A DNA stretch of 22,487 nt. Origin: a virus. This document shows positions 1,035 to 18,527 of the stretch, in pieces. Each line of letters opens with the position of its first letter. Within the stretch, counting starts at the first letter, position 1. The notes beneath the pieces were generated by a model. The model was given only the letters and a program-made list of their open reading frames with translations. It did no database searches and had not been told where the DNA came from. The DNA lies in the IMG/VR virus record IMGVR_UViG_3300025816_002203, positions 1 to 22,487 of that record; one strand, given 5' to 3'. A program made the translations under genes and the position numbers.

Positions 1035-1062
1035 TTGACCTGAATTGGATATATGGTATGCT
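1035..1062 (+). promoter_or_regulatory. Early promoter of the 1074 gene
   Basis: TTGACC (1035-1040), 16 bp, TATGCT (1057-1062), with TGG before the -10. Transcription should start about 7 nt downstream, leaving at most a few nucleotides before the ATG at 1074. The same TATATGG-TAT context recurs at 2749-2761 and upstream of the 3217 gene. Confidence 0.7.
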
Positions 1063-1073
1063 GAATGTACGTT

Positions 1074-1319
1074 ATGAAAACAAAAGGTGGAATCACATAC
1101 ATCGGAGTATCATTGGGAGAACTGAAAAAGTACTTTACTGATGATGCTGTCATTCATGTTTCAAAGAAGTTTCTGAAATCTTATGAGTTAATATCTGGTA
1201 TGGAGGAGGAGACTAAGCCTGTAGTAATAAATGTCACAAACAAAGCTCAGGAAGTAGTAAAGACAGAAGAACCTGCTGCTGCTCCAATTGAGATAAATTC
1301 TTTTGATGGAGACTGGTAA
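1074..1319 (+). CDS. Small acidic-tailed protein of unknown function
   Basis: 81 residues. An ATG also exists at 1065, but it lies 2 nt after the -10 hexamer and would not be in the transcript, so the ATG at 1074 is chosen. The N-terminal half (GGITYIGVSLGELKKYF, then VIHVSKKFLKSYELI) looks like a small alpha/beta fold. The second half is low-complexity (Glu, Thr, Pro, Ala) and ends in an acidic tip, NSFDGDW, reminiscent of the protein-interaction tails of single-strand DNA binding proteins; that likeness is a shape argument only. It sits between the putative origin region and the RuvB-like gene, each with its own promoter, so a role in replication is plausible but unproven. Confidence 0.75.
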   Translation: MKTKGGITYIGVSLGELKKYFTDDAVIHVSKKFLKSYELISGMEEETKPVVINVTNKAQEVVKTEEPAAAPIEINSFDGDW

Positions 1320-1344: not shown

Positions 1345-1372
1345 TTGACATAAGTTGAAACTTACTTTAAAT
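1345..1372 (+). promoter_or_regulatory. Early promoter of the RuvB-like gene
   Basis: TTGACA (1345-1350), 16 bp, TTAAAT (1367-1372), then 11 nt to the ATG at 1384. The same 11-nt geometry is seen at 1074 and 3906. The upstream in-frame TTG at 1372 falls inside the -10 and is not a credible start. Confidence 0.7.
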
Positions 1373-1383
1373 TGATTACTGTT

Positions 1384-2391
1384 ATGACAAACACTACTAC
1401 TACTACTACTAAAATCGACCTGTTTCCCAATGTTGTTGGGCAATATCCTGCAAAGCGTAAATTTGAGTTTTACATCAAAGGATTTGAGAGAACAGGTATT
1501 GTTCCTAATATCCTGTTAACTGCTCCAAAAGGTGCAGGTAAGACCATGCTGGCAAGAGCATTTGCTAGGAATCTCGTCATCGAAGATGTTCGCGAGATAG
1601 ATGACGTATTACATGATGTTATCGTGCCTAAGAGATATCTTGAGTTTAATTGTGCTACGATTAAGAATCTCAGGCAATTCGTTGAACAGATAATGGTTCC
1701 TTACATGCAAGGTGGATCTAAGGCTACATTCCTGTTCGATGAATGTCACATGTTACCCAAGGATGTTACCATGGCGTTATTAACTATCACTAATCCCAAT
1801 AAAAATAATTTTAATACTTTTAGCTACGAGGGAAGTGATATTGATATTGATTTCAGAAAATTAACATTCATTTTCGCCACTACTGAACCTCAAGATGTAT
1901 TTCATGCATTGATTGATCGTATGAAAAAAATTGACCTTGACGATTATTCTTATGACGAATTAGCTCAGATCCTCATGTTGAATACTGATAAGATCAAGTT
2001 TTCTGGTGATATTGTTGTAAAACATATTGCTCCTACTCTCAGAGGTAATGGTCGTTCTGCTCAGATGATGGCAACGGATATCGTAAGTCATTGCGCTCAG
2101 AATAACATAAAAACATTTAAATTAAAAGATTGGAATGTTATGTGCAAAGTGCTTGACATTTTACCTTATGGCTTAGAGAAGCTGGAACTCAGGTATCTGA
2201 ATATCCTTCGACGTAATGGATGTATCAGGTTATATAACTTAGCAGCAAAATTACAGATGACTAGATCAGCAATCCAATCTAATACAGAAGTTTATCTGCA
2301 AAAGTTAAATCTAATTGAAGCTACTGCTCATGGCAGACAGTTAACCGTCAAAGCTAAGGAACTCTTTGAGAAAAAAATATTGACTTCTTGA
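1384..2391 (+). CDS. RuvB-like AAA+ ATPase
   Basis: 335 residues. A P-loop APKGAGKT lies at about 47-54, Walker B FLFDECH at 116-122, a sensor-1-like ATTEP at 165-169 and a candidate arginine finger in IDRMKK near 179. The last 65 residues (LRRNGCIRLYNLAAKL...) look like a winged helix. This order, AAA+ core then C-terminal winged helix, is that of RuvB, the hexameric motor that drives Holliday-junction branch migration; phage versions are known. The usual RuvB length is about 330-350. No RuvA or RuvC is visible in the window. A clamp-loader or other AAA+ remodeller remains possible. The N-terminus has a run of six ACT codons (poly-Thr), a likely variable microsatellite. It probably acts in recombination or replication of phage DNA. 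Confidence 0.8.
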   Translation: MTNTTTTTTKIDLFPNVVGQYPAKRKFEFYIKGFERTGIVPNILLTAPKGAGKTMLARAFARNLVIEDVREIDDVLHDVIVPKRYLEFNCATIKNLRQFVEQIMVPYMQGGSKATFLFDECHMLPKDVTMALLTITNPNKNNFNTFSYEGSDIDIDFRKLTFIFATTEPQDVFHALIDRMKKIDLDDYSYDELAQILMLNTDKIKFSGDIVVKHIAPTLRGNGRSAQMMATDIVSHCAQNNIKTFKLKDWNVMCKVLDILPYGLEKLELRYLNILRRNGCIRLYNLAAKLQMTRSAIQSNTEVYLQKLNLIEATAHGRQLTVKAKELFEKKILTS

Positions 2392-3016: not shown

Positions 3017-3217
3017 TCAGTAGTCTTCCTCATAGTAAGTCTCATCAAGGTCACTCGGATTCCCCTGATGACCTCCAAGACCGCATCGATCCCGATAACC
3101 ATAACAGCATTCCTCGCAAAAATATCCTGCGTAAACATTATAACTGTCACGGTGTTGAATCTGGCGCGATGGTTTAAGCTCGCGGCATTTTGGGCATTTC
3201 TTTTGAGGTGATTCCAT
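3017..3217 (-). CDS. Small zinc-ribbon protein
   Basis: 66 residues. Two knuckles, CPKC near residues 8-11 and CEEC near 34-37, suggest one zinc-ribbon; the C-terminus is acidic and Tyr-rich (DETYYEEDY). The start is set by the promoter: on the minus strand TTGCAA, 16 bp, TATGCT, then 6 nt to the ATG at 3217. A longer reading frame runs upstream through the palindromic repeat to 3379 but would lie before the transcript start. The partner or target is unknown. A terminator follows directly, so it is a one-gene unit. Confidence 0.75.
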   Translation of the reverse strand: MESPQKKCPKCRELKPSRQIQHRDSYNVYAGYFCEECCYGYRDRCGLGGHQGNPSDLDETYYEEDY

Positions 3218-3251
3218 GTAGTAAGCATACCATATTAATCTGGCATTGCAA
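3218..3251 (-). promoter_or_regulatory. Leaderless early promoter
   Basis: Minus strand: TTGCAA (3246-3251), 16 bp, TATGCT (3224-3229), 6 nt, ATG. Confidence 0.7.
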
Positions 3252-3293
3252 GTTTTATTATCATTATATTTTAAAAAGATATTTTCATTAGAA

Positions 3294-3385
3294 GCTTGAC
3301 ATTCATAAGGTCTTGAATATAAGGTACTTAGAGCTCCGAGGGGGCCCCTCCGCGGCCCTAACCCCCTCATTATCAACACTTTAGG
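3294..3385. repeat. Palindromic GGGGCCCC repeat, copy A
   Basis: The core is GAGGGG-G-CCCCTC nested in CG/CG, GC/GC and TTAG/CTAA pairs. The left arm starts CTTGACATTCATAA and contains a promoter (TTGACA 3296-3301, 16 bp, TATAAG 3318-3323). The right arm, reversed, matches the left arm of copy B (GTTGA-ATA..GGGGTTAGGGC). See the repeat finding. Confidence 0.7.
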
Positions 3386-3431
3386 GGTCTTTCAAAATCA
3401 CAAGAAAAGAATTGTGTCAAGAAAAAATCTT

Positions 3432-3695
3432 TTAAATCCCAACCTCCTTGTCATAGGCAACAGCCTTCTTATAATCTATTCTACAATAGCTACAAGTTTT
3501 TTTGCTGTATCTAAAGCCGTATTTAAAGCCGAGTAGAAACCCATTGATTTCCTCAAGTGATCTGCTATCGAAAACCGCCTCGTTATCTTTTGTCAAGAAA
3601 AACATTGATCCAGTTTTATCGAAACAAAAACCAAGTTCTTTTGCCAAAGAATTCACATTCCATTTCATTACCGGTGGTCTAGTATATTGCCTCAT
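3432..3695 (-). CDS. Hypothetical protein, second gene of a two-gene unit
   Basis: 87 residues. It starts 4 nt after the stop of the 3700-3906 gene and has no promoter of its own, so it should be co-transcribed with it. The sequence has a mixed alpha/beta look (LAKELGFCFDKTGSMFFL) and one CSYC motif near residue 68. No Shine-Dalgarno is present; translational coupling is likely. An in-frame ATG ten codons in (KWNVNSL) is an alternative start. No family recognised. Confidence 0.65.
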   Translation of the reverse strand: MRQYTRPPVMKWNVNSLAKELGFCFDKTGSMFFLTKDNEAVFDSRSLEEINGFLLGFKYGFRYSKKTCSYCRIDYKKAVAYDKEVGI

Positions 3696-3699
3696 GCTT

Positions 3700-3906
3700 T
3701 TAGTATCCTAAAAAGTCCAAGCACTGTTGCCTATCCCATTCCGAAGCGTCAATCCACTCAGAACCGGCTTGTCCGCCTCCACTGTAAACATCCTCCACTA
3801 AAAGCTGAGAATGTTGTTTATTGGTTGCATAACGTTTGAAAGATTCCATATCGCTTGAATATTCATGGAGTTCTAGTATCTGAATTAGTTTGTCTATAGC
3901 GGTCAT
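3700..3906 (-). CDS. Small hypothetical protein
   Basis: 68 residues from the ATG at 3906. The promoter on the minus strand is TTGACG (3940-3945), 16 bp, TTAAAA (3918-3923), then 11 nt to this ATG; the in-frame TTG at 3945 is the -35 itself, so a longer protein is rejected. The N-terminal half is helical (IDKLIQILELHEYSSD), the C-terminus acidic and ends SEWDRQQCLDFLGY. It is transcribed divergently from the GP88-like gene, the two -35 boxes being 36 bp apart, which would allow shared control. Confidence 0.65.
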   Translation of the reverse strand: MTAIDKLIQILELHEYSSDMESFKRYATNKQHSQLLVEDVYSGGGQAGSEWIDASEWDRQQCLDFLGY

Positions 3907-4009
3907 ATGTCCAGTAATTTTAAGACACTTTTTATTTTGCGTCAATGTAAAAGATAAATTTTATTTTTATCATTTATGGGGTTGACATCTTTTATTTATC
4001 AGGTATATT
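3907..4009. promoter_or_regulatory. Divergent early promoter pair
   Basis: Minus: TTGACG (3940-3945)/TTAAAA (3918-3923). Plus: TTGACA (3982-3987), 16 bp, TATATT (4004-4009), then 6 nt to the ATG at 4016. Both transcripts would be leaderless or nearly so. Confidence 0.7.
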
Positions 4010-4015
4010 GATTGC

Positions 4016-4765
4016 ATGAGTTCACTTAAGATAACTTTTGAAAACGCCAAGCTGAAAGGCATATGGCATTATTCACTTCCAAGCGGTTATACTTGCCCCG
4101 GTGCAAAATGCTGCAAGACATTTGCCGATAGAGAAACAGGCAAGATCACCGATGCACAAACGCCAGTTGATGGTATGTCTTTTCGTTGTTATGCTGCAAT
4201 GGATGAAGGACGTTTGCCCAATGTCCGCAAGCCAAGATGGGAAAACTTTGATTTATTAAAATCATTGAAAACTACAGCGCAAAAAGTAAAGCTTATTGTC
4301 AAGAGTATAAAAGAAACTGGTTTAACTCGCGGAGGAACCTTGCGCGTCCATATTGGTGGTGATTACTATTCACAGTCTTATTTTAACGCATGGATGAAAG
4401 CATCAAGCTTTTTCCCGAATATTGTTTTTTATTCTTATACTAAGAGCTTGAAGTTTTTATTATCTTACGTCAAGGAAAACGGTGGCTTGCCTGATAATTT
4501 TGTTTTTACTTGTTCGCGTGGTGGAAAGTATGATAATTTAATTCCCTCAACTATGGTCAAAAGCGCAAGAGTTTTCTTTTCTCAAGAAGAGGCCAAAGCT
4601 TTGGATCTTGACATTGATCACACAGATGATTTTGCAATCTCTGGCAAGGATGATTTTGCATTAGTCATTCATGGAAACCAGCCAGCAGGGACAAGTGCAA
4701 GTAAAGCTTTACAAGCTTTGAAGAAAAAAGGCTTTACAGGCTACGGTAAAAAAAGTAAGATCTAG
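4016..4765 (+). CDS. GP88-like phage protein
   Basis: 249 residues. The opening (LKGIWHYSLPSGYTCPGAKCC), the RCYAAMDEGRLPNVRKPRW block and the LRVHIGGDYYSQSYFNAW block match my memory of the GP88 family found in actinobacteriophages and other phages and plasmids. Its biochemical role is not established. The conserved Cys residues (CPGAKCC, RCYA) and the HIGGD motif suggest metal or nucleotide binding, which is inference. It begins a four-gene plus-strand unit (22-, 51- and 130-residue proteins follow with 5-7 nt gaps). The start is fixed by a promoter whose -10 ends 6 nt before the ATG. Confidence 0.75.
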   Translation: MSSLKITFENAKLKGIWHYSLPSGYTCPGAKCCKTFADRETGKITDAQTPVDGMSFRCYAAMDEGRLPNVRKPRWENFDLLKSLKTTAQKVKLIVKSIKETGLTRGGTLRVHIGGDYYSQSYFNAWMKASSFFPNIVFYSYTKSLKFLLSYVKENGGLPDNFVFTCSRGGKYDNLIPSTMVKSARVFFSQEEAKALDLDIDHTDDFAISGKDDFALVIHGNQPAGTSASKALQALKKKGFTGYGKKSKI

Positions 4766-4770
4766 AAAGT

Positions 4771-4839
4771 ATGTGGTTAGTATGCGGTTTGATTTTGGGT
4801 GCGGTCTTATGGGTAATGTCTCAACAACCTATGGAATAA
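4771..4839 (+). CDS. 22-residue single-TM micro-protein
   Basis: MWLVCGLILGAVLWVMSQQPME, stop TAA. It is almost wholly one hydrophobic helix. It lies 5 nt after the GP88-like stop and 7 nt before the next ATG, as expected of a coupled gene, but there is no Shine-Dalgarno. It may be a real membrane peptide or a coupling ORF; comparison with related phages would decide. Confidence 0.4.
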   Translation: MWLVCGLILGAVLWVMSQQPME

Positions 4840-4846
4840 AATACAA

Positions 4847-5002
4847 ATGGAAGAACACAAAGAATACAAAGTAAAGTTGACAGCTCAAGAAATTTTTGAG
4901 TTGAAAGATCATCATAGAGAACTAATGGAAGATACATTCACGTATGAGGGCGCGCTTGTCCTCGGAGTGGTAGATCAAATATTAAAACAAGATAAAGAAT
5001 AA
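4847..5002 (+). CDS. 51-residue hypothetical protein
   Basis: A charged, mostly helical small protein (YKVKLTAQEIFELKDHHREL... VLGVVDQILKQDKE). Its leader, GGAATAAAATACAA, is nearly the same as that of the next gene (GAATAAAATACT), a Shine-Dalgarno-free A-rich leader. Third gene of the 4016 unit. No family recognised. Confidence 0.6.
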   Translation: MEEHKEYKVKLTAQEIFELKDHHRELMEDTFTYEGALVLGVVDQILKQDKE

Positions 5003-5008
5003 AATACT

Positions 5009-5401
5009 ATGAAAAACAAAAAATTAATTAGCTATATTTCACACATTATCGAGTCACAAGATTTTTCAATCCCCATAAAAGTAAATTTGATTGGCGGAGT
5101 GATGGAAATCTTTTCTGCGACTTCCTTAGAGCCACAAGCTCAAGAAAAAAGACCTCAAGAAAAAAGACCTCAAGAAAACAAAACAGAGAAAAAACAAAAG
5201 ATTGTTTCTACTGCAAGATATTGGAAATACAAAACTGAGCAAGATCCGAACAGTAAACCGAAAGGCGAGAAGATTAGAATGTCAATAAAAAGAGGGGTAT
5301 CAAAAAAACGTATCTGCGCTTATTTTAACTTGACAGAATATCAATATCGCGCTCATAAAGCTGTCTGCGCGAGAATGGAAAGAAAAACTGTGAAAAAATA
5401 G
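5009..5401 (+). CDS. Basic protein with repeat linker and HTH-like C-terminus
   Basis: 130 residues, fourth gene of the 4016 unit, 6 nt after the previous stop. A helical N-terminus is followed by a linker with QEKRP repeated (a 15-bp tandem DNA repeat near 5137-5175), then a very basic C-terminal half. The segment IKRGVSKKRICAYFNLTEYQYRAH reads like a helix-turn-helix, so DNA binding is likely but not proven. The repeat copy number may vary between relatives. Confidence 0.6.
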   Translation: MKNKKLISYISHIIESQDFSIPIKVNLIGGVMEIFSATSLEPQAQEKRPQEKRPQENKTEKKQKIVSTARYWKYKTEQDPNSKPKGEKIRMSIKRGVSKKRICAYFNLTEYQYRAHKAVCARMERKTVKK

Positions 5402-5468
5402 TCTTGACAATGTAAGATTTTAAAGGTAATGTAGCGGCATCGTATTTTGCTGGTTAATTCATCGCCTT

Positions 5469-5499
5469 GAGGGTAACTACATAAAAGCCCTCGTCTTCT
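5469..5499 (+). terminator. Weak candidate terminator
   Basis: GAGGG (5469-5473) pairs with CCCTC (5488-5492), followed by GTCTTCTT. It could end the 4016-5401 unit; no better hairpin is present. TTGACA at 5404-5409 has only a poor -10. Confidence 0.35.
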
Positions 5500-5504
5500 T
5501 AAAC

Positions 5505-5602
5505 TATTGAATATCAAGGGGTTAGGGCTGCGCCGGGGCCCCCTCGGGGCTGTAAACCCTTTAAAACCAAGGACTTACATCGTTAGCGCTGGCATCCAAT
5601 CA
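5505..5602. repeat. Palindromic GGGGCCCC repeat, copy B
   Basis: The left arm (TTGAATATCAAGGGGTTAGGG) matches the right arm of copy A read in reverse; the right arm (GTAAACCCTTTAAA..CAAGGACTTA) matches copy D. There is no -35 in this copy. The right end runs into the 3' end of the 5575-6012 gene and supplies its stop codon. Confidence 0.7.
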
Positions 5603-6012
5603 CCGACCCAGATTTCTTTATTATTTATTAAAGTATATTTATATGACTCTAATATAGATTCGCCGCTATCTTTTTTTATAAAAGTTTTATATTTATAAGG
5701 ATTATATACTACTTGAAAATCAGTAGAGAATATTTTCTTTCCACCGCCCCAAGGAATCGTAGGTCCATAAGTTTCCACCAGTTGACCGCATACGAAAGCA
5801 TGAACGTTTTTTCTTTTCTCTTTTAGGACCTTGGCTCTACCTGCTGGCTGAACTCTGAACTTTACATTTTTAAGAACAACCGCATGTGGATGATCAACAA
5901 CCACGCCTTTGACTCTCATACTTAGGCATTTTCTGTGAAGGTTATAATAAACAGACACAGTTTTTCCTGAGTTGATGAGATCCATTTTTTCGCTATCTGA
6001 TATTGATTTCAT
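5575..6012 (-). CDS. Conserved hypothetical phage/bacterial protein
   Basis: 145 residues. The block VSVYYNLHRKCLSMR...VVDHPHAVVLKNVKF..QPAGRAKVL..KRKNVHAFVCGQLV resembles a widespread family of unknown function that carries an RKNVHAFV..G motif in phages and proteobacteria (recalled, not searched). The N-terminus reads like a small beta-rich domain. The ATG at 6012 is 6 nt after TAGAAT (-10), with TTGCGT 16 bp upstream. The last six codons (MPALTM) and the TAA lie in palindromic repeat B, so the repeat has probably replaced the original C-terminal codons. Confidence 0.7.
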   Translation of the reverse strand: MKSISDSEKMDLINSGKTVSVYYNLHRKCLSMRVKGVVVDHPHAVVLKNVKFRVQPAGRAKVLKEKRKNVHAFVCGQLVETYGPTIPWGGGKKIFSTDFQVVYNPYKYKTFIKKDSGESILESYKYTLINNKEIWVGDWMPALTM

Positions 6013-6046
6013 GATTAAATTCTATTGTATTTTTTTCTGAACGCAA
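6013..6046 (-). promoter_or_regulatory. Leaderless early promoter
   Basis: Minus strand: TTGCGT (6041-6046), 16 bp, TAGAAT (6019-6024), 6 nt, ATG. It follows closely after the terminator of the upstream gene. Confidence 0.7.
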
Positions 6047-6057
6047 GAATTACTTTC

Positions 6058-6084
6058 ATAAAAAAGCCCCCTTTTCAGGGGGCT
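6058..6084 (-). terminator. Rho-independent terminator
   Basis: Minus strand: AGCCCCCT-GAAA-AGGGGGCT followed by TTTTTT. It ends the DUF932 gene. Confidence 0.9.
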
Positions 6085-6089
6085 GTGAT

Positions 6090-7010
6090 TTAATTTGTGG
6101 CGAGTGATACTTCATCCACCTCGATTTTCTCCTTGTCCGGGATTCTTGTTGTCAGCTTGGTGAAGGTCGCATCGTTATTGGCAGCTTCACTTAATCTACT
6201 AAGAACATTTCGATTGGCTCGATTTGATAGTTCAAACCTATGCTCGGCTACATTGTGCGTCAAGTGCTGAGTTACTGCATTGTAAAGGTTATACATATTT
6301 CGAGGGTGGTCAATTGCAGCGTGTCCCGCGTTTACCTTATAGGTTTCATCAATCCAGATTGGAGTTATGGAATCTTTCATGCAAGTTGAGATCATCTTTT
6401 TATCTGCTAAGTTTTCCAAGATGAGAACTCCTTGCTCTTCAGTTATCAACATGTCATTTAAATGGCGAAACATATCAGCCGACTCTCGGAATTTCGTTGC
6501 GCATTTTAAAACTGACTCAGCGATTGAATCCAGTTTCAGCTTCTTACTATGCTGTTGATTTAATTGGCTATCAGCTTTCAAGCTCATCATCCCATTAGAG
6601 CAAACCAATCGGCGTAAACCAATTGACCAACTTAGTCCAGAACTGCGATCAAAAGAATTGTTGAGGATCAAACGCATTGAAACCACATCCCCTACATTGA
6701 TTTTTTCCTTAACGGCAGGGAAGTCATAAACGCCGTAAAAACGAGAACCTCCTTGAGTGACAAGTTTTTCTGATTCATACTGCCCAAGATTAGTTCTTTC
6801 AAGTGCCTGTTCCACTTTTTCTATTACTGTTCCATTATTTACAATTTCATAATGCTTGCTTGTCGATCCAATGCATTCATTGGTGTCTGTTCTGTAATTT
6901 CCCATTACATGTGATGGGTTTCCATCGGCGTCTGATAATGGGCGCTGCTCCACTTGAAAGTCATAGTGGTTGGATTGAAGTGATTTTTTTGGTATGGATT
7001 GTTTTCTCAT
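6090..7010 (-). CDS. DUF932 phage/plasmid-like protein
   Basis: 306 residues. The stretch GTVIEKVEQALERTNLGQY, the KLVTQGGSRFYGVYDFP block and the VSMRLILNNSFDRSSGLSW..GLRRLVCSNGM block match the DUF932 family (also the TIGR03299 phage/plasmid-like proteins). This family is common in phages and plasmids; its role is not known for certain. Length fits. Unlike its neighbours the promoter (TTGACC 7070-7075, 17 bp, CATTAT 7047-7052, minus) lies about 37 nt from the ATG, so the mRNA has a leader of roughly 30 nt ending GAATAAATACT without a Shine-Dalgarno. A perfect terminator follows the stop. Confidence 0.8.
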   Translation of the reverse strand: MRKQSIPKKSLQSNHYDFQVEQRPLSDADGNPSHVMGNYRTDTNECIGSTSKHYEIVNNGTVIEKVEQALERTNLGQYESEKLVTQGGSRFYGVYDFPAVKEKINVGDVVSMRLILNNSFDRSSGLSWSIGLRRLVCSNGMMSLKADSQLNQQHSKKLKLDSIAESVLKCATKFRESADMFRHLNDMLITEEQGVLILENLADKKMISTCMKDSITPIWIDETYKVNAGHAAIDHPRNMYNLYNAVTQHLTHNVAEHRFELSNRANRNVLSRLSEAANNDATFTKLTTRIPDKEKIEVDEVSLATN

Positions 7011-7046
7011 AGTATTTATTCAGTGATAGGTTTTAACTTCGAATTA

Positions 7047-7075
7047 ATAATGACATTTTTTTCTGATATGGTCAA
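7047..7075 (-). promoter_or_regulatory. Early promoter with short leader
   Basis: Minus strand: TTGACC, 17 bp, CATTAT. The start should be near 7040, giving a ~30-nt A-rich leader before the DUF932 ATG. Confidence 0.6.
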
Positions 7076-7095
7076 CAATATTTTATGATTATTTT

Positions 7096-7770
7096 TTATG
7101 CGGTTAGAAATTTATGAGCTTTTAAAGTATTGGTGAAAGCCATCATTAGCATTGGGCTGTAAGGGTTTGTGCTGTAACGATGTGACCAGATGTTAATCCA
7201 TCCCTGTTCGCCAAATCTTTCTAAAAGGTGTGGCTCAAGATTACTTGCATAATAACCATGTTTAAATTCCATAGGGACGTTTTTATTATGGCGGATACTC
7301 TTGGCGTAAAAAGTCACGACCACGACAGAATGGGGGGCGCATTGTCTCGTTGACTCTTCAATACGTTCTGTATTCGCTGCCCCACAATAATCACGCCAAA
7401 TGAACATGGGGTTTGTATATTTTGCGCGTCCAGTAGCAGGGCTTTCAACATATCCGTTTTCTGGGAGAGGTAACTCCACGTAAGATAAAACATCACGATT
7501 TTGATCCAATAACCTATTAACACGCGGAGTTTCCATATTATTTTTATATACAATTCCATCTCCTTCGTAACAGAAAAGTTTTACGTTTTCTTGCCTTGCT
7601 CGTTTTAATATATGACGTTCTAAATTAAATCCAGTAGCAGGAAGCCCCGCAAACGCTTTTTCTTTTCCCTTGAGCATTTTTTCAAATTCAGCTTCTAGTC
7701 CTGCGACCATATGGCGAGCTTTGATTTTTTCATTATTTTTTTCAATTGAAGGTGAGTAGCTTGTGTTCAT
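7096..7770 (-). CDS. Hypothetical protein, possibly methyltransferase-like
   Basis: 224 residues. After a charged N-terminus, the segments HILKRARQENVKLFCYEGD, then PMFIWRDYCGAANTERI, then SVVVVTFYAKSIRHN recall the layout of phage class I methyltransferase-like proteins (acidic residue after strand 2, a W-DYCG strand, then a VTF strand). The glycine-rich SAM loop is not evident, so this is a weak structural guess. The ATG at 7770 is 6 nt after CATTAT with TTGACC 17 bp upstream. A 22-bp tandem repeat (7825-7868) lies just upstream of the -35 and may be its operator. Confidence 0.55.
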   Translation of the reverse strand: MNTSYSPSIEKNNEKIKARHMVAGLEAEFEKMLKGKEKAFAGLPATGFNLERHILKRARQENVKLFCYEGDGIVYKNNMETPRVNRLLDQNRDVLSYVELPLPENGYVESPATGRAKYTNPMFIWRDYCGAANTERIEESTRQCAPHSVVVVTFYAKSIRHNKNVPMEFKHGYYASNLEPHLLERFGEQGWINIWSHRYSTNPYSPMLMMAFTNTLKAHKFLTA

Positions 7771-7805
7771 GAGAAAATAATGTCATAATATAATCTCAGG
7801 GTCAA
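7771..7805 (-). promoter_or_regulatory. Leaderless early promoter
   Basis: Minus strand: TTGACC (7800-7805), 17 bp, CATTAT (7777-7782), 6 nt, ATG. Confidence 0.65.
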
Positions 7806-7824
7806 CCATAAAAGTAACTTTTTT

Positions 7825-7880
7825 AAATATGAAGTGTGATCTAGTCAAATATGAAGTGTGGGACAGTCAAATAATGAGCG
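7825..7880. repeat. 22-bp tandem repeat, candidate operator
   Basis: AAATATGAAGTGTG-NNNN-AGTC occurs at 7825-7846 and 7847-7868, followed by the partial AAATAATGAGCG. Two helical turns per unit and a position 20 bp upstream of the 7770 gene's -35 suggest a regulator-binding array. Confidence 0.6.
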
Positions 7881-7941
7881 CGGCTCTTTAATAAAAAAAA
7901 CTTTTTTCCGCAGATCACTTTATGATATAAAGTAAGTATTC

Positions 7942-8066
7942 GCTTGACATTCGTAACCTATTTACTATTAAGGGTTTACGTCTGCTCGGGGGCCCCTTCG
8001 CAGCTGTAAAGTGCTTATTATTAGGGGTTTATAGATATTTAGGTAAGCATTCAGCGTGCCAAGGTG
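7942..8066. repeat. Palindromic GGGGCCCC repeat, copy C
   Basis: The core hairpin is TTTAC..CTGC..GGGGGCCCC..GCAG..GTAAA. The left arm carries TTGACA (7944-7949), 16 bp, TATTAA (7966-7971). The right end, read in reverse, is CCTTGGCACGCTGAATGC, matching copy D's right end (CTTGGCACGCC). It is the fullest copy together with D. Confidence 0.7.
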
Positions 8067-8101
8067 GAAAAAGAAAAATCCGCGAAATTAATCGCGGATT
8101 T
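8066..8101 (-). terminator. Terminator hairpin
   Basis: AAATCCGCG (8076-8084) pairs perfectly with CGCGGATTT (8093-8101). On the minus strand it is followed by TTTCTTTTT, so it would stop leftward transcripts from the 8277-8468 gene. Confidence 0.75.
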
Positions 8102-8133
8102 AACTTGACAAGCGGGAAAACCATTAAACCCAT

Positions 8134-8212
8134 TTGTCGTTTCACATAAGTAGTATATGAACATGTGAAAATGTCGGGGATTGTTTTAAGTCAGCCCCGA
8201 CTGACTGTTTCT
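8134..8212 (+). ncRNA. Promoter plus two mutually exclusive hairpins
   Basis: TTGTCG (8134-8139), 16 bp, TATGAA (8156-8161). The RNA begins near 8168 and can pair GTCGGGG (8173-8179) with CCCCGAC (8195-8201), or AGTCAG (8189-8194) with CTGACT (8201-8206); the two stems exclude each other. A 15-codon ORF (ATG 8171) spans them. No gene follows on this strand, so an attenuator-like or antisense RNA is possible. Confidence 0.4.
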
Positions 8213-8276
8213 CCATAACACAACAACATAACCAATAACAAATCCGATTCACCTCCATCGGCAGGGAAATTTAAAA

Positions 8277-8468
8277 TTAGATCGTTTCCTCATTCGGCCA
8301 GATTTTAAAACCTTTATGCCAGATACTCACCTCTTGATTTTTACCGTATCGGTTCAAGATCTGCTCGGCTTCTTCAAAAGCTCTCAGCAAGCCTTCATTT
8401 GTTCGCGGGAAAGTCTCGTAAACATCTTTTGTGTGCTTGAGCCTGTAAACGTTATCATTAACTTTCAT
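8277..8468 (-). CDS. Small hypothetical protein
   Basis: 63 residues with a predicted helical middle (EGLLRAFEEAEQILNRYG) and a C-terminal strand-like end (VSIWHKGFKIWPNE). The promoter is textbook for this phage: TTGACA, 16 bp, TAAATT, 6 nt, ATG. It begins MKVN like its upstream neighbour at 8794, an effect of duplicated start regions. A weak CCGAT/ATCGG hairpin follows at 8244-8261. No family recognised. Confidence 0.7.
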   Translation of the reverse strand: MKVNDNVYRLKHTKDVYETFPRTNEGLLRAFEEAEQILNRYGKNQEVSIWHKGFKIWPNEETI

Positions 8469-8502
8469 ACGTTCAATTTACCAGATTAAAAGAGTTTGTC
8501 AA
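8469..8502 (-). promoter_or_regulatory. Leaderless early promoter
   Basis: Minus strand: TTGACA (8497-8502), 16 bp, TAAATT (8475-8480), 6 nt, ATG. The -35 lies just beyond the stop of the 8504-8794 gene. Confidence 0.75.
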
Positions 8503-8503
8503 A

Positions 8504-8794
8504 TTATATTTCTCGCATTGCTGTCGCATATATCGGATCTCCAACATGGCGAACTCCCATAACTTCCCACGGTGCCATATCAGTTGAGATATCATCCTCA
8601 AAACAATAGTAATCATGATGACGATTTTTCCAATCATACATATAGATATATGTTTTGCCGTTCCATGTGGAAGGGACTTCATCGCCATCACAGGCGACAC
8701 AATAAGGCGCGTTCTTAAATGCTGCGGAAAAAGTCTTGCCGTTTGGCATGGTGTAGGTGACGATTCCGGTTTCAGTATCCTTGTTAACTTTCAT
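8504..8794 (-). CDS. Hypothetical protein with CxxC
   Basis: 96 residues. It looks beta-rich (ETGIVTYTMPNGKTFSAAF, then GKTYIYMYDWKNR) with a single CVAC pair near residue 32 and acidic stretches. It starts 6 nt after CATAAT with TTGCGT 16 bp upstream, and carries the shared upstream box (8829-8849). The stop abuts the next promoter, showing very tight packing. No family recognised. Confidence 0.7.
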   Translation of the reverse strand: MKVNKDTETGIVTYTMPNGKTFSAAFKNAPYCVACDGDEVPSTWNGKTYIYMYDWKNRHHDYYCFEDDISTDMAPWEVMGVRHVGDPIYATAMREI

Positions 8795-8850
8795 GATTTA
8801 ATTATGTCAGTTTTAAAGATTAACGCAAGGAAAAAGAGTGATTATTTTTA
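8795..8850 (-). promoter_or_regulatory. Leaderless early promoter with upstream box
   Basis: Minus strand: box AAAATAATCACTCTTTTTCC, then TTGCGT (8823-8828), 16 bp, CATAAT (8801-8806), 6 nt, ATG. The box overlaps the 3' end of the 8848-9285 gene. Confidence 0.75.
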
Positions 8851-9285
8851 GAGCTTGTAAAAAGCATGTTGACCAATTACTTTTACAGGTTTTTTGCCTT
8901 TTGCCCAATAAGGTTTCTTTTTCATCCATGTTGCGTGATAGTGGTTGCTGTAACCAACCAAGGCACGATTCATTGAGTTGACATTCTTGGCAAAGTATAT
9001 CGCCATCTTTGCCTGTGGCAAGTCAAGCAAGTGTTCAAGATCTTTTAAACTTTTGCCGTTCCAACATGAGAATTGCCATTTCGCTAAACAGATTTGTTTT
9101 GCTGTTTGCTTTCGTTCAATTGCTCGTTGTTGAATAACGGCACAAACTGCGCCCATTCCATTGTCGCCCTCTCCTCTTGCTTCTGCAAGTAGCGTGATTG
9201 CCACAATTTTTTGTTCATCTGTAATTGATGACGCCAATGCCGAGATTGATTGAAGTAAGAGAATTGCATATATTAAAGATTTCAT
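8848..9285 (-). CDS. SleB-type cell-wall hydrolase with signal peptide
   Basis: 145 residues. Residues 1-18 (MKSLIYAILLLQSISALA) form a signal peptide, so the enzyme should be exported to the periplasm or wall. The family marks of cell-wall hydrolases (SleB/CwlJ, Hydrolase_2) are TLLAEARGEG with the probable catalytic Glu at 35, NHYHATW at 114-120, and the C-terminal VIGQHAFY. It cleaves peptidoglycan (lytic transglycosylase type is typical). It is short, the catalytic domain alone. The in-frame TTG at 9318 is the -35 and is rejected as start. Not next to an obvious holin; its use could be lysis or wall remodelling. Confidence 0.85.
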   Translation of the reverse strand: MKSLIYAILLLQSISALASSITDEQKIVAITLLAEARGEGDNGMGAVCAVIQQRAIERKQTAKQICLAKWQFSCWNGKSLKDLEHLLDLPQAKMAIYFAKNVNSMNRALVGYSNHYHATWMKKKPYWAKGKKPVKVIGQHAFYKL

Positions 9286-9338
9286 AGTATAAGGTAACAT
9301 ATTAAAGGGGATTGTCAAGCCCTCCTTTTCAGGAGGGC
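9286..9338 (-). promoter_or_regulatory. Hairpin abutting a leaderless promoter
   Basis: On the minus strand GCCCTCCT-GAAA-AGGAGGGC (9319-9338) directly touches TTGACA (9313-9318); then 16 bp, TACCTT (9291-9296), 5 nt, ATG. The hairpin has no U-tract, so it may stop the upstream 9346-9558 transcript weakly while sitting against the hydrolase -35. Confidence 0.6.
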
Positions 9339-9345
9339 CGTTGAA

Positions 9346-9558
9346 TTATTGACGCAGTATGTCAATTATTTTGTTAGTATTGAATCTTCTAAGAGGTCCA
9401 ATATTCCCATCAACTACTTTATGACAGATAATATGATCTGAATGTTTTTCAACTTGAGTAATGCAGTATTCCATCATCTTTTGACCTTTCACGTAGAAAA
9501 GAGAATATTTTGCGTTTGAAATGATGTTGGTTAGTTTGTTTTCTAAGATGTTGTTCAT
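9346..9558 (-). CDS. Small protein with WYL-like strand motif
   Basis: 70 residues. The C-terminal part (MMEYCITQVEKHSDHIICHKVVDGNIGPLRRFNTNKIIDIL) reads as successive beta strands ending RRFNTNKI, like the closing strands of small SH3-like/WYL modules; the 11034 gene ends in a similar way. This is a weak likeness. Promoter: TTGCAA, 16 bp, TATATT, 6 nt, ATG, with the upstream box at 9593-9613. It starts MNNILEN, close to the MDKILEN of the next micro-gene upstream, so the cassette (promoter plus first codons) was duplicated. Confidence 0.65.
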   Translation of the reverse strand: MNNILENKLTNIISNAKYSLFYVKGQKMMEYCITQVEKHSDHIICHKVVDGNIGPLRRFNTNKIIDILRQ

Positions 9559-9614
9559 GGTTTTAATATAACAGTTTTTGAGGTTGTTGCAAGGAAAAAG
9601 AGTGATTATTTTTA
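9559..9614 (-). promoter_or_regulatory. Leaderless early promoter with upstream box
   Basis: Minus strand: AAAATAATCACTCTTTTTCC box, TTGCAA (9587-9592), 16 bp, TATATT (9565-9570), 6 nt, ATG. Confidence 0.75.
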
Positions 9615-9728
9615 ATCTATCTTGTTTGCGAGATGATCAAACAGGGCTTCGAATCTTTCACCCGAAGCTAGTAGGGTATTTTCAAGCCAGACACCGAGAG
9701 CAATCATATTTTCTAAGATCTTGTCCAT
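9612..9728 (-). CDS. 38-residue micro-protein
   Basis: MDKILENMIALGVWLENTLL..., ending LFDHLANKID. It is amphipathic to hydrophobic helical and could associate with a membrane or partner. It is supported chiefly by its promoter, which follows the shared geometry exactly (TTGTAA, 16 bp, TAGATT, 6 nt, ATG) and carries the upstream box. The first six codons resemble those of the 9558 gene. Confidence 0.6.
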   Translation of the reverse strand: MDKILENMIALGVWLENTLLASGERFEALFDHLANKID

Positions 9729-9785
9729 GGTTCTAATCTATCAGATTCAAGGAGTATTACAAGGAAAAAGAATGATTATTTTTTC
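9729..9785 (-). promoter_or_regulatory. Leaderless early promoter with upstream box
   Basis: Minus strand: AAAATAATCATTCTTTTTCC box, TTGTAA (9757-9762), 16 bp, TAGATT (9735-9740), 6 nt, ATG. The TAA in this -35 is also the stop codon of the next gene upstream. Confidence 0.7.
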
Positions 9786-9894
9786 CCATCTCCCAAGATC
9801 TCAACCCGTCCAAGTATTTGCGTGAGGCCTTGTCTCTTGCGGATTTTTTGGCTGCGGCTCGTGCTAGGAATTGTTTGAATTCTTTATCTTTCAT
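9757..9894 (-). CDS. 45-residue basic micro-protein
   Basis: MKDKEFKQFLARAAAKKSAR...YLDGLRSWEMGKNNHSFSL. A lysine/arginine/alanine-rich helix suggests nucleic-acid binding. Its last residues (NNHSFSL) are encoded by the shared promoter box of the next gene, and its stop is that gene's -35, so coding and regulatory DNA overlap. Promoter: TTGCAA, 16 bp, CATACT, 6 nt, ATG. Confidence 0.6.
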   Translation of the reverse strand: MKDKEFKQFLARAAAKKSARDKASRKYLDGLRSWEMGKNNHSFSL

Positions 9895-9960
9895 ACTTAT
9901 AGTATGACAGTTTTTTCAAACATTGCAAGCGTTTTCTGAAAAAAAGTATGATTATTTTTT
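9895..9960 (-). promoter_or_regulatory. Leaderless early promoter, variant box
   Basis: Minus strand: AAAATAATCATACTTTTTTT, about ten extra bases, then TTGCAA (9923-9928), 16 bp, CATACT (9901-9906), 6 nt, ATG. Confidence 0.65.
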
Positions 9961-9983
9961 GTCTGAAGTATTTTAAATTAAAA

Positions 9984-10105
9984 GCTTGACATGCATAACT
10001 CGTTGAATATAAACACTTTAGGGCTCTGAGGGGGCCCGGCCCGAGCCGTAAACCCTTTAAAGTCAAGGACTTAGAGCGATCGCAGTAAGCATCTGGCGTG
10101 CCAAG
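9984..10105. repeat. Palindromic GGGGCCCC repeat, copy D
   Basis: The left arm has TTGACA (9986-9991), 16 bp, TATAAA (10008-10013). The core GGCTC..GGGGGCCC..GAGCC is flanked by TTTA/TAAA. The right arm (GTAAACCCTTTAAAGTCAAGGACTTAGAGCG) matches copy B. The ends read CTTGACATGCA and, reversed, CTTGGCACGCC, i.e. short imperfect terminal inverted repeats. Confidence 0.7.
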
Positions 10106-10133
10106 ATTAATTTAAAAAAAGTGCACAAAAAGC

Positions 10134-10245
10134 TTGTTATTGTTTTTTGTTTCCCTATAATAATAAGTGGACCCCTGATGACGCGGATACACAAGGACAA
10201 AAAGAAAGGGCCGAAGCCCTCCTTGTCAAGGTTTATTTTTATTTC
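10134..10245 (+). ncRNA. Candidate short plus-strand RNA
   Basis: TTGTTA, 16 bp (mostly T), TATAAT (10156-10161). The RNA would start near 10168, has no ORF, and ends in a compound hairpin: ACAAGG (10191-10196)/CCTTGT (10221-10226) around AGGGC-CGAA-GCCCT, followed by TTTATTTTTATTTC. It would be antisense to the 3' end of the 10239-10649 gene. Confidence 0.45.
10197..10226 (-). terminator. UUCG-loop terminator
   Basis: On the minus strand AGGGC-TTCG-GCCCT is followed by TTCTTTTTGT. It ends the 10878-to-10239 unit; the other strand may serve the plus-strand RNA. Confidence 0.8.
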
Positions 10246-10649
10246 TTTACCATCACCTGATAACATTGGATCTTCTTATAGAATGAAAAGTCTGATTCAT
10301 TCCAAGAATCATCTGGAGTATCACCGTCAAAGATTGAATCCTTGAAAACTTCCATTTCAAAATCACAAAGGATACTGATAACATTATAACCATTTGAAAC
10401 ATGAGGAAGACAAGGGTCTTCATCGGGGCAAATGTTGTCGAGCTTTACTCTATCCCATAGCAGCTCTAATACTTCACAACCTGAGATCCATTGTCGTTCA
10501 TGTTGTGATACTAACCCCATCACCATTTGATAAACTGCTTTGCTTTTATCTGCTTGAATAAGCAACTGTTCAAAATGCTTAAGGCATTCTTTGTATTCCA
10601 TGCGCTCATACTGTGTGAGTTTCTCTTCTATGTTAGTGATTGTATTCAT
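10239..10649 (-). CDS. Hypothetical protein, second gene of a unit
   Basis: 136 residues from the ATG at 10649. It lies 13 nt after the stop of the 10663-10878 gene and has no -10, so it should be co-transcribed. Its leader (AACAGAATACAAACC) is A-rich and resembles that of the 11034 gene. The protein is largely helical (EEKLTQYERMEYKECLKHFEQLL), then acidic (CPDEDPCLPHVSNGY, FDGDTPDDSWNESD). A longer frame from TTG at 10676 overlaps the upstream stop and is rejected. No family recognised. Confidence 0.65.
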   Translation of the reverse strand: MNTITNIEEKLTQYERMEYKECLKHFEQLLIQADKSKAVYQMVMGLVSQHERQWISGCEVLELLWDRVKLDNICPDEDPCLPHVSNGYNVISILCDFEMEVFKDSIFDGDTPDDSWNESDFSFYKKIQCYQVMVKK

Positions 10650-10662
10650 GGTTTGTATTCTG

Positions 10663-10878
10663 TTATATGTTATCAACGGATGCGTTAAGGAAAACCGAGG
10701 AGTTATTCTCCATTGTTTGTATTATATGATCTTGTTCTGAGATCTTTTCTTTCAGGTAATCTTTTCTTTCCTCTGAAAGAGCTTTCTTTTGCTCATCCTC
10801 AAGGAGACGCTTGTGACTTGAGGCTGAAGTGATGACCTTGTAGTAAAGGGACATGTTGAAGTCTTTCGTTGTTTTCAT
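10663..10878 (-). CDS. Small coiled-coil protein
   Basis: 71 residues, nearly all charged helix (SHKRLLEDEQKKALSEERKDYLKEKISEQDHIIQTM), probably a short coiled coil. The promoter keeps the rule: TTGCGT (10907-10912), 16 bp, TAAATT (10885-10890), 6 nt, ATG, with the upstream box in the form AAAATAATGACTCTTTTTTG. First gene of a two-gene unit. Function unknown. Confidence 0.65.
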   Translation of the reverse strand: MKTTKDFNMSLYYKVITSASSHKRLLEDEQKKALSEERKDYLKEKISEQDHIIQTMENNSSVFLNASVDNI

Positions 10879-10935
10879 GATATAAATTTAACATATTTTA
10901 AGATTAACGCAACAAAAAAGAGTCATTATTTTAAA
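10879..10935 (-). promoter_or_regulatory. Leaderless early promoter with upstream box
   Basis: Minus strand: AAAATAATGACTCTTTTTTG, TTGCGT (10907-10912), 16 bp, TAAATT (10885-10890), 6 nt, ATG. Confidence 0.7.
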
Positions 10936-12418: not shown

Positions 12419-12453
12419 GATTTTACACTATTTTTTGTGTAATATGTTTTAAC
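12419..12453 (+). promoter_or_regulatory. Late-type motif GTGTAATATG
   Basis: GTGTAATATG (12437-12446), 7 nt before the 12454 ATG, with no -35. TTACAC...GTGTAA forms an inverted repeat around a T-rich loop. Confidence 0.55.
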
Positions 12454-12882
12454 ATGGGACTTAATTTAAATTACGCCAAGGAAGACGGACAGCAGGCTGA
12501 CTATTGGAAGATCAGTCGTGTTGAAAATTGGTTTCAAGGAACAACAGGCCCTCAATACGCAGCTAATGTTAATACCTTGGGATTTACAAATGAAACTTAT
12601 CGCGATCAAGGAGCTCCATCGGTTGATGGAAACATGTATACATGTCCTTATTCTGGAGCTCGAGATTATTATCCTTATGTGGATGTCACCGGGGTTTCTG
12701 GAGAAATAACCGGTAAACAACGCGTCGGTCCTCCACTACCATCAGACTGGGATTGGGCTGAAAACGGAGTATCCGGTTGGATGCAGAGAAGTGACGATAT
12801 TAGAAGCGGCGCTTATACTTGGTTGAAAAATTGTGTACCTTTCTTTTCGGGATCAGTAGACGCACTTACAATAGGAGAATAA
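12454..12882 (+). CDS. Putative virion protein, paralogue 1
   Basis: 142 residues. Rich in Tyr, Trp, Gly and Asn with few charges, as in phage surface or fibre proteins. Its last 75 residues (VTGVSGEITGKQRVGPPLP...GWMQRSDDIRSG) align with the next gene: SGE.TG..RVGP.LP, VSGWM, DIR.GA.TW, NCVP.FSG. The pair is therefore a tandem duplication. No fold recognised; the structural role is inferred from composition and position. Confidence 0.65.
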   Translation: MGLNLNYAKEDGQQADYWKISRVENWFQGTTGPQYAANVNTLGFTNETYRDQGAPSVDGNMYTCPYSGARDYYPYVDVTGVSGEITGKQRVGPPLPSDWDWAENGVSGWMQRSDDIRSGAYTWLKNCVPFFSGSVDALTIGE

Positions 12883-17467: not shown

Positions 17468-17857
17468 ATGAAAGCGTATTGTCCAGATTGCGGTTCAGCA
17501 ACAGAGTATTCTTTAAGTAAGCCCAAATTTTGTGCTTCTTGTGGTAAATCTTTTTCTTTGACTGCGTCAGCGCCGGTTAAAAAAATTTTTAAACCCCGAG
17601 CTAGAACTGTTGAGCCTCAAATTGAAATAGAGGAAGAAGAAGAATTTTCAATTCCGGATATTGATAAACTACAAGTTAGTATCGAAGCGTCTAGATTTAA
17701 AAATGTAAGTAAGATAGGGGATATTATGGGATCTAATACGGAGAGTGACGAAGAAGGGTTTCGAAGAGAAGTAGATTCTAGTTACTCTTTGGAAACTTTT
17801 GAACAGGACTTTATGAGGGATGCTGGAAGTTCACGCAAATCTGATGCGAAAACCTAA
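17468..17857 (+). CDS. Zinc-ribbon protein with acidic region
   Basis: 129 residues. An N-terminal zinc ribbon (CPDC at 5-8, CASC at 22-25) is followed by a basic linker (KKIFKPRARTVEP), an acidic run (EIEEEEEFSIPDID) and a disordered-looking tail. Zinc ribbon plus acidic linker suggests a nucleic-acid or RNA-polymerase contact factor. It is the first gene of a unit of overlapping genes and overlaps the sigma-like gene by 14 nt, so the two may be made together. Partner to the sigma factor is a reasonable guess only. Confidence 0.65.
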   Translation: MKAYCPDCGSATEYSLSKPKFCASCGKSFSLTASAPVKKIFKPRARTVEPQIEIEEEEEFSIPDIDKLQVSIEASRFKNVSKIGDIMGSNTESDEEGFRREVDSSYSLETFEQDFMRDAGSSRKSDAKT

Positions 17858-18527
17858 ATTAAAATTTGAAGATCATATTGAACAAATAGATAAGGAAATA
17901 AAGAAAAGAAGATCCAAGTGGAACCTAACAGCTCTCTCATGGATGGACTTTGATGACGTTTCTCAAATTCTTAGGATCCATATATTTAACAAATGGCATT
18001 TATATGACATTAACAAACCGTTAAATCCGTGGATTAATAGAATAATTTCTAATCAGATTAAAAACTTAATCCGTAACAATTATGGTAATTACTGTAGACC
18101 CTGTCTGAAATGTGCTGCAGCAGAAGCTGGAGACTTATGTTACATATACGGTAAACAAAGTGAAGCCTGCCCTCTTTTTGCTAACTGGAGCAAGACAAAA
18201 AAACAAGCTTATAACGCTAAACTCCCCGTCTCGATAAACGATCATACCTATGAGTTAAACGCTGCCGAATACAGCAATATTGATATTATAAGAGTTATGG
18301 AAAAAGTTAACGCAAAGATGAGGGAAAGTCTAAAACCAGCTGAATGGAAAATATACAAAGCTCTGTATATTGATCATATGTCTGAAGAAGATGCTGCAAC
18401 ATTGATGGGGTATAAAACAAATGAAAAAAACCGTGTCCCCGGGTATAAACAAATTAAAAATGTAAAAAAAGCTATTATTAATAAAGTCAAAAAAATGTTA
18501 AATGATGGCGATATAGAAATACTATGA
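17844..18527 (+). CDS. Divergent sigma factor with Cys-rich insertion
   Basis: 227 residues from the ATG at 17844 (a start at 17820 would also work). Residues 36-80 (DFDDVSQILRIHIFNKWHLYDINKPLNPWINRIISNQIKNLIRN) read as sigma region 2, including the WI.RI..N..KN..R helix that contacts the -10. Residues 163-219 (LKPAEWKIYKALYIDHMSEEDAATLMGY... IKNVKKAIINKVKKML) look like a degenerate region 4. Between them CRPCLKC (84-90), C99 and C109 form a likely zinc-binding insert. T4 gp55-type late sigma factors are similarly reduced. It probably directs the host RNA polymerase to the GTGTAA motifs before late genes, including the one that starts its own unit. Confidence 0.7.
   Translation: MRKPKLKFEDHIEQIDKEIKKRRSKWNLTALSWMDFDDVSQILRIHIFNKWHLYDINKPLNPWINRIISNQIKNLIRNNYGNYCRPCLKCAAAEAGDLCYIYGKQSEACPLFANWSKTKKQAYNAKLPVSINDHTYELNAAEYSNIDIIRVMEKVNAKMRESLKPAEWKIYKALYIDHMSEEDAATLMGYKTNEKNRVPGYKQIKNVKKAIINKVKKMLNDGDIEIL

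Follow-up and report, generated by a model that had tools for sequence, protein, structure and literature searches.

Why should the start codons of many genes in one phage stand at the same distance from their promoters, to the base? The question is raised by a virus record of 22,487 bases (IMG/VR record IMGVR_UViG_3300025816_002203; GC 35.7%), analysed here over its whole length and called the window. An earlier note on this DNA had described, before most of the presumed early genes, a -35 box, 16 bp, a -10 box and 6 nt running straight into ATG, and had taken the messages to be leaderless. Below ~12 kb the window carries numerous small genes together with those for a GP88 family protein (gene 4016, PF17338; genes are named by the position of their start), a DUF932 protein, a RuvB/clamp-loader-like AAA protein and a cell wall hydrolase; above ~16 kb it encodes PhoH, an ERCC4-type nuclease and the large terminase. 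It holds no tRNA genes and no Rfam matches. The source phage is uncultured and belongs to a family known from metagenomes.

A fixed promoter-to-start distance in the window

Upstream regions were re-read on both strands and scored with the pattern TTGnnn-N(spacer)-[TC]AnnnT-N(offset)-ATG in 442 cells of spacer and offset, at the 203 ATG starts of open reading frames (ORFs) of at least 38 codons. The exact arrangement TTGnnn-N16-(T/C)AnnnT-N6-ATG precedes nine ATGs, and these are the genes for which it had been claimed: eight on the minus strand (3217, 6012, 8468, 8794, 9558, 9728, 9894 and 10878) and one on the plus strand (4016). The mean cell of the grid holds 0.26 cases and the runner-up three. 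Scoring against shuffled sequence, which the earlier note had proposed, was carried out on the upstream regions of the window; in 300 dinucleotide shuffles cell (16,6) averaged 0.18 and reached 2 at most, and even the fullest of 80 cells held no more than 3. The phasing is confirmed as genuine and significant. That matching boxes had simply been picked from AT-rich DNA, where TTG and TA...T are frequent and loose boxes common at this GC content, is ruled out by the shuffles, by the empty neighbouring cells and by phasing across species (below); chance is very improbable.

Genes 7770 (minus; 17 bp and 6 nt), 9285 (minus; 16 and 5) and 1074 (plus; 16 and 11) also read as had been described. At 1384 (plus) and 3906 (minus) the reported 16 and 11 can be read, but 17 and 10 gives the better -10 boxes, TAAATT and TAAAAT. 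The exact arrangement serves nine of the ~20 genes in the left half of the window; the others have 10–11 nt (1074, 1384, 3906), a longer leader or none visible, or lie within operons.

Homology links the promoters of 8794, 9558, 9728 and 10878, which agree at 31–40 of the 54 positions outside the motif (at most 29 in the null). This rules out counting nine promoters as nine independent cases and leaves about six, which is still far above chance. Of the regularity that had been reported for both strands, the exact cases lie almost wholly on one of them. Most pairs among the remaining promoters share 8–25 of 54 non-motif positions (null 99.9 percentile 27), and 7770 and 10878 are alike at 31 of 54. 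The uniformity is owed partly to cassette copying before different genes. Within the copied set, the block AATCACTCTTTTTCCTTGc... recurs before four small, mostly unrelated-looking genes (8794–10935, minus strand), as if copied as a cassette; upstream sequence AATCACTCTTTTTCC is common to 8794 and 9558, and 9558 and 9728 also have the N-terminal residues ILEN in common.

The sequence around the start codon was compared for the eleven closest cases, namely the nine exact genes, 7770 and 9285. An extended -10 element, TGn, directly precedes the -10 box in nine of these, including 7770, where it fixes the position of the box despite the 17-bp spacer. The base 5' of ATG is a pyrimidine in all eleven (eight C, three T); C stands there in 8/11 against 5/22 other starts (Fisher P 0.009), whereas pyrimidine alone does not differ significantly between the two groups (P 0.28). 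None of the eleven has a Shine-Dalgarno-like tetramer. In nine no other in-frame start lies between the preceding stop, at -33 for gene 4016, and the ATG; the GP88 match begins at the first residue in all sequences compared. Transcription is known to prefer a start 7 bp below the -10 box, with a pyrimidine at -1 and a purine at +1 (PMC5730371), and on this basis transcription is predicted to begin with the A of the ATG. Given promoter-like boxes, ATGs that are mostly the sole starts and the lack of Shine-Dalgarno sites, a 5' end at or adjoining the ATG is the best prediction, and the messages of the window are predicted to be leaderless.

Relatives with a different phasing constant

Relatives were found by terminase and GP88 searches, and pieces of contigs of 170, 144, 56 and 40 kb, with some smaller ones, were read. 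Public viral contigs contain 269 terminase relatives. A second record (L133) is 99.6% identical to the window across the shared part and has the same promoter arrangement at the genes covered; when the shared element AATCACTCTTTTTCCTTG from the upstream regions was searched for in the collection, this near-identical record came up, with two further ones that have no match to the window's left-half proteins. In the other relatives the same promoters are again phased to ATG, at an offset of 10 nt with spacers of 16–17 (strongest cells (17,10) and (16,10)), and offset 6 is a minority class. The trinucleotide GTT precedes ATG at 62 of 70 offset-10 promoters, and conservation often runs on as AGAGAT in the first codons; the background in the longest relative (G001) is 41 of 984 ATG-ORF starts, or 4.2%. 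In each of the six relatives read, the promoter of the GP88 gene is phased and leads into GTTATG; the window has GATTGCATG there.

A conserved block of the relatives, GTTATGAGAGAT, spans the start codon before different genes. The -35 sequence, the spacer and the discriminator vary; the phase and GTT are constant. Searching IMG/VR with TATACT-N7-GTTATGAGAGAT gave 23 stretches, 22 of them with genes of the window phage's family, against four, none convincingly of the family, for a control pattern with two extra bases. In G001, 14 of 20 promoter-ATG pairs fall within 92–119 kb, the counterpart of the window's left part. With a start at position 8 (G), a 3-nt leader is predicted, 5'-GUUAUG. The leaderless reading of the earlier note remains the best prediction for the window, but its 6-nt spacing is ruled out as a family-wide rule by the offset of 10 in the relatives. 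Within this uncultured phage family, the constant 6 nt represents a local form of a broader design, phased and near-leaderless.

The boxes, their phasing, the missing Shine-Dalgarno sites and the relatives' different constant, as read from sequence, are the basis of the following proposal. Sigma-70-type promoters would each drive one gene or short operon and would probably be used by the host's polymerase as infection begins; the early timing is suggested by gene content. Selection would hold the -10 box at a set distance from the start codon, so that transcripts of the window phage open with the A of ATG itself and those of most relatives three bases earlier, as 5'-GUUAUG. Ribosomes would accordingly initiate at an AUG at or close to the 5' end, with no Shine-Dalgarno site. 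We consider this explanation, selected phasing with leaderless or near-leaderless messages, to be probable as a whole.

Several points weigh against it: (i) four of the nine window promoters are copies; (ii) pyrimidine-rich discriminators can shift the start 1–2 bp downstream (PMC5730371), which would strip A or AU from the AUG; (iii) some genes of the family do have Shine-Dalgarno sites, in G001 31 of 138 against 13 expected; and (iv) a distant relative (L136) has a single weak promoter-ATG pair in the stretch examined.

The first of these points raises the alternative that promoter and start codon were copied together, and that the spacing reflects common descent and not selection on leader length. 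The four homologous promoters fit such a history, as does the block that crosses the start codon before different genes in the relatives. Yet the remaining window promoters are mostly dissimilar outside the motif and keep the same phase, and in the relatives phase and GTT hold while -35, spacer and discriminator differ. Copying as the main cause is rather unlikely.

The constancy of GTT suggests a second alternative, in which GTTATG(AGAGAT), possibly Y-ATG, is a translation or regulator-binding element comparable to the start-associated sequences of cluster K mycobacteriophages, with promoter distance secondary. Its frequency at offset-10 promoters, the conservation reaching ~7 nt into the gene and the 41 GTT-ATG starts of G001, which exceed its recognised promoter pairs, all agree with this. 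Against it, displacing the element by two bases in the control pattern loses the clear family members, and the window phage has mostly lost GTT but keeps a phase. We think an element of this kind, with the promoter distance secondary, unlikely.

Leaders might also be short without being zero, with transcription starting 1–5 nt off the predicted base and the exact 6 nt meaningless for translation. Leaders of 3–5 nt seem to be tolerated, judging by the 10-nt offset of the relatives and by 1074, 1384 and 3906 of the window, and 9285 has 5 nt. On the other side, about six independent promoters share exactly 6 nt, a pyrimidine at -1 and A at +1, and as Lactococcus cremoris groups all leaders below 5 nt together (PMC10986495) the difference would be one of degree. 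Short non-zero leaders with a meaningless spacing are unlikely.

Selected phasing with leaderless or near-leaderless messages may have a further aspect. Early messages could be fixed as 5'-GUUAUGAGAGAU (or bare 5'-AUG in the lineage of the window), a promoter-coupled signal that replaces the Shine-Dalgarno site, is read by 70S ribosomes or by some host or phage factor, and has spread as promoter-start cassettes; we offer this tentatively, as something possible but not the likelier outcome. That such messages might sustain translation under altered host initiation, as the earlier note supposed, is a guess. Homologues of IF3, S1 or S21, as phage-encoded helpers, were not seen in seven family records, several of them fragments.

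Two side observations concern leaders. Gene 2439 and its orthologues have a TATAAT/TATATT-like box 5 nt 5' of ATG, kept in close relatives without a good -35. In three relatives (L111, L122 and L123) the DUF932 gene (window 7010, minus) has a longer leader with a small GAGG-bearing hairpin, followed by GTTATG; the upstream region of the window copy looks unlike these. A DUF932 search gave distant relatives only, none with the promoter grammar.

A late-type motif, neighbouring elements and the host

The features of the window are collected in Table 1. A second motif, GTGTAA, occurs 131 times across the family, 67 times (51%) at most 25 nt before an ATG-ORF, against a mean of 8% for permuted hexamers. 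Its distance to ATG is mostly 5–18 nt, and GTGTAA(TAT) precedes genes of the structural region across the family. The motif may represent a late promoter class, T4-like and also short-leadered, for which the sigma-70 region 2-like protein of the window would be a candidate reader; PF04542 matches above the cut-off occur in four relatives (G001, G005, G009 and G011). G001 carries two sigma-70 region 2-like proteins (54983–55162 and 129584–129727).

Table 1 Promoter, start and late-type features of the window
Feature	Positions	Strand	Description
Gene 3217	3215..3251	-	TTGCAA 3246-3251, N16 ending TGG, TATGCT 3224-3229, TACTAC, ATG
Gene 4016 (GP88)	3982..4018	+	TTGACA 3982-3987, N16, TATATT 4004-4009, GATTGC, ATG
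Gene 6012	6010..6046	-	TTGCGT, N16, TAGAAT 6019-6024, TTAATC, ATG
Gene 7770	7768..7805	-	TTGACC, N17 ending TGA, CATTAT 7777-7782, TTTCTC, ATG
Gene 8468	8466..8502	-	TTGACA, N16 ending TGG, TAAATT 8475-8480, GAACGT, ATG
Gene 8794, cassette	8792..8850	-	TTGCGT, N16 ending TGA, CATAAT, TAAATC, ATG
Gene 9285 (cell wall hydrolase)	9283..9318	-	TTGACA, N16 ending TGT, TACCTT 9291-9296, ATACT, ATG
Gene 9558, cassette	9556..9615	-	TTGCAA, N16 ending TGT, TATATT, AAAACC, ATG
Gene 9728, cassette	9726..9785	-	TTGTAA, N16 ending TGA, TAGATT, AGAACC, ATG
Gene 9894	9892..9928	-	TTGCAA, N16 ending TGT, CATACT, ATAAGT, ATG
Gene 10878, cassette	10876..10935	-	TTGCGT, N16 ending TGT, TAAATT, TATATC, ATG
Gene 1074, GTTATG-type	1035..1076	+	TTGACC, N16 ending TGG, TATGCT 1057-1062, N11 ending GTT, ATG
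Gene 1384 (RuvB/clamp-loader-like AAA), GTTATG-type	1345..1386	+	TTGACA, N17, TAAATT 1368-1373, N10 ending GTT, ATG
Gene 3906, N10-type	3904..3945	-	TTGACG, N17, TAAAAT 3917-3922, TACTGGACAT, ATG
GTGTAA, late-type	12437..12456	+	11 nt before ATG of gene 12454
GTGTAA, plus-strand	14408, 17454, 22397	+	before genes 14432, 17468, 22417
GTGTAA, minus-strand	15781, 16345 and one before 14361	-	before genes 15765, 16327, 14361
Sigma-70 region 2-like protein	17844..18527	+	PF04542 E=6.1e-5, just below curated cut-off

Two further kinds of element lie among these genes. Four GC-rich repeats stand out in the AT-rich DNA (3286–3420, 5481–5600, 7936–8075 and 9976–10110; core GGGGGCCC or GGGGCCCC), three of which open with promoter-like TTGACA-N16-TAt boxes. 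They have no copies in the other relatives examined, and structured RNA was rejected as they fold no better than shuffles and match no Rfam family. The non-coding segment 2904–2970, with the repeated 'aataacagaaggcg', is 86–92% identical in relatives, where the flanking genes are ~70% identical, and is possibly an origin or a regulatory site.

Terminase matches in isolate phages reach only ~25% identity and give no pointer to a host, and PhoH and GP88 matches are spread across many hosts. The sole match in a genome collection is L136 (NZWA01000041.1), a contig of 77 kb whose terminase is 73% identical, binned in a metagenome-assembled genome (MAG) of the Flavobacteriales; this is a weak host hint and the contig may be misbinned. 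TTGACA/TATAAT promoters are not known as the Bacteroidota type.

Comparison with known systems

Most work on leaderless translation has dealt with single genes or with a small number of bacterial groups. The present phage family appears to base much of its expression on near-zero leaders. If so, the requirements of an AUG at or near the 5' end (a leader of 0 or 3 nt, and the first codons) could be studied on a natural collection of cases, and start sites in such phages would be better annotated, as ORF callers extend such genes upstream through the promoter. TATACT-N7-GTTATGAGAGAT is a ready signature for finding the family and, via transcriptomes, the host.

Among bacteria, leaderless genes of the TA-led kind carry TANNNT ~10–12 bp ahead of the start codon (Zheng et al. 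2011, PMC3160421; Deinococcus-Thermus, PMC12340547), and Zheng et al. call leaderless genes by this arrangement (PMC3160421). The window box begins 12 bp before ATG, beyond chance, and that of the relatives 16 bp before it. Both systems have a TANNNT -10 directly before the ORF, no Shine-Dalgarno site and a presumed 5'-terminal start codon. The phage family differs in its full -35, TGn, tighter phasing and, in the relatives, a constant GTT leader. In the bacterium L. cremoris, where leaders were defined by RNA sequencing, those below 5 nt form a class apart from ~40-nt leaders (PMC10986495), as would the 0- and 3-nt classes here, which are predicted from sequence. The constants of 6 and 10 nt may be alternative solutions of one type.

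Among phages, the start-associated sequences (SAS) and extended SAS (ESAS) of cluster K mycobacteriophages (PMC3203893), with promoters in ESAS (PMC11373665), also place a repeated short element at the starts of different genes, partly coupled to SigA-type promoters. Their 13-bp GGGATAGGAGCCC sits just upstream and can pair with rRNA, whereas GTTATGAGAGAT runs across the start and has no Shine-Dalgarno site; read by eye, the upstream sequences of window and relatives contain no GGGATAGGAGCCC. T4 late promoters carry TATAAATA at -10 and are read with gp55. Their TATAAAT (PMC9004378) resembles GTGTAA in being a -10-like motif close before late genes, alongside a sigma-region-2-like phage protein. 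The motif differs, however, GTGTAA replacing TATAAATA, and the link to the sigma-like protein is putative.

A parallel in strategy is the Thermus phage phiYS40, most of whose middle and late mRNAs are leaderless, with altered IF2/IF3 levels (PMC3594737). Both phages would rely on leaderless transcripts for whole gene classes, a prediction in our case; the class is middle and late in phiYS40, and here presumably early, with host-type promoters. Phage transcripts were also reported as often leaderless in the AR9 paper (PMC5312081). Leaderless phage mRNA as such is not without precedent, being known from phiYS40; what looks new is the uniform phasing and the GTTATG signature.

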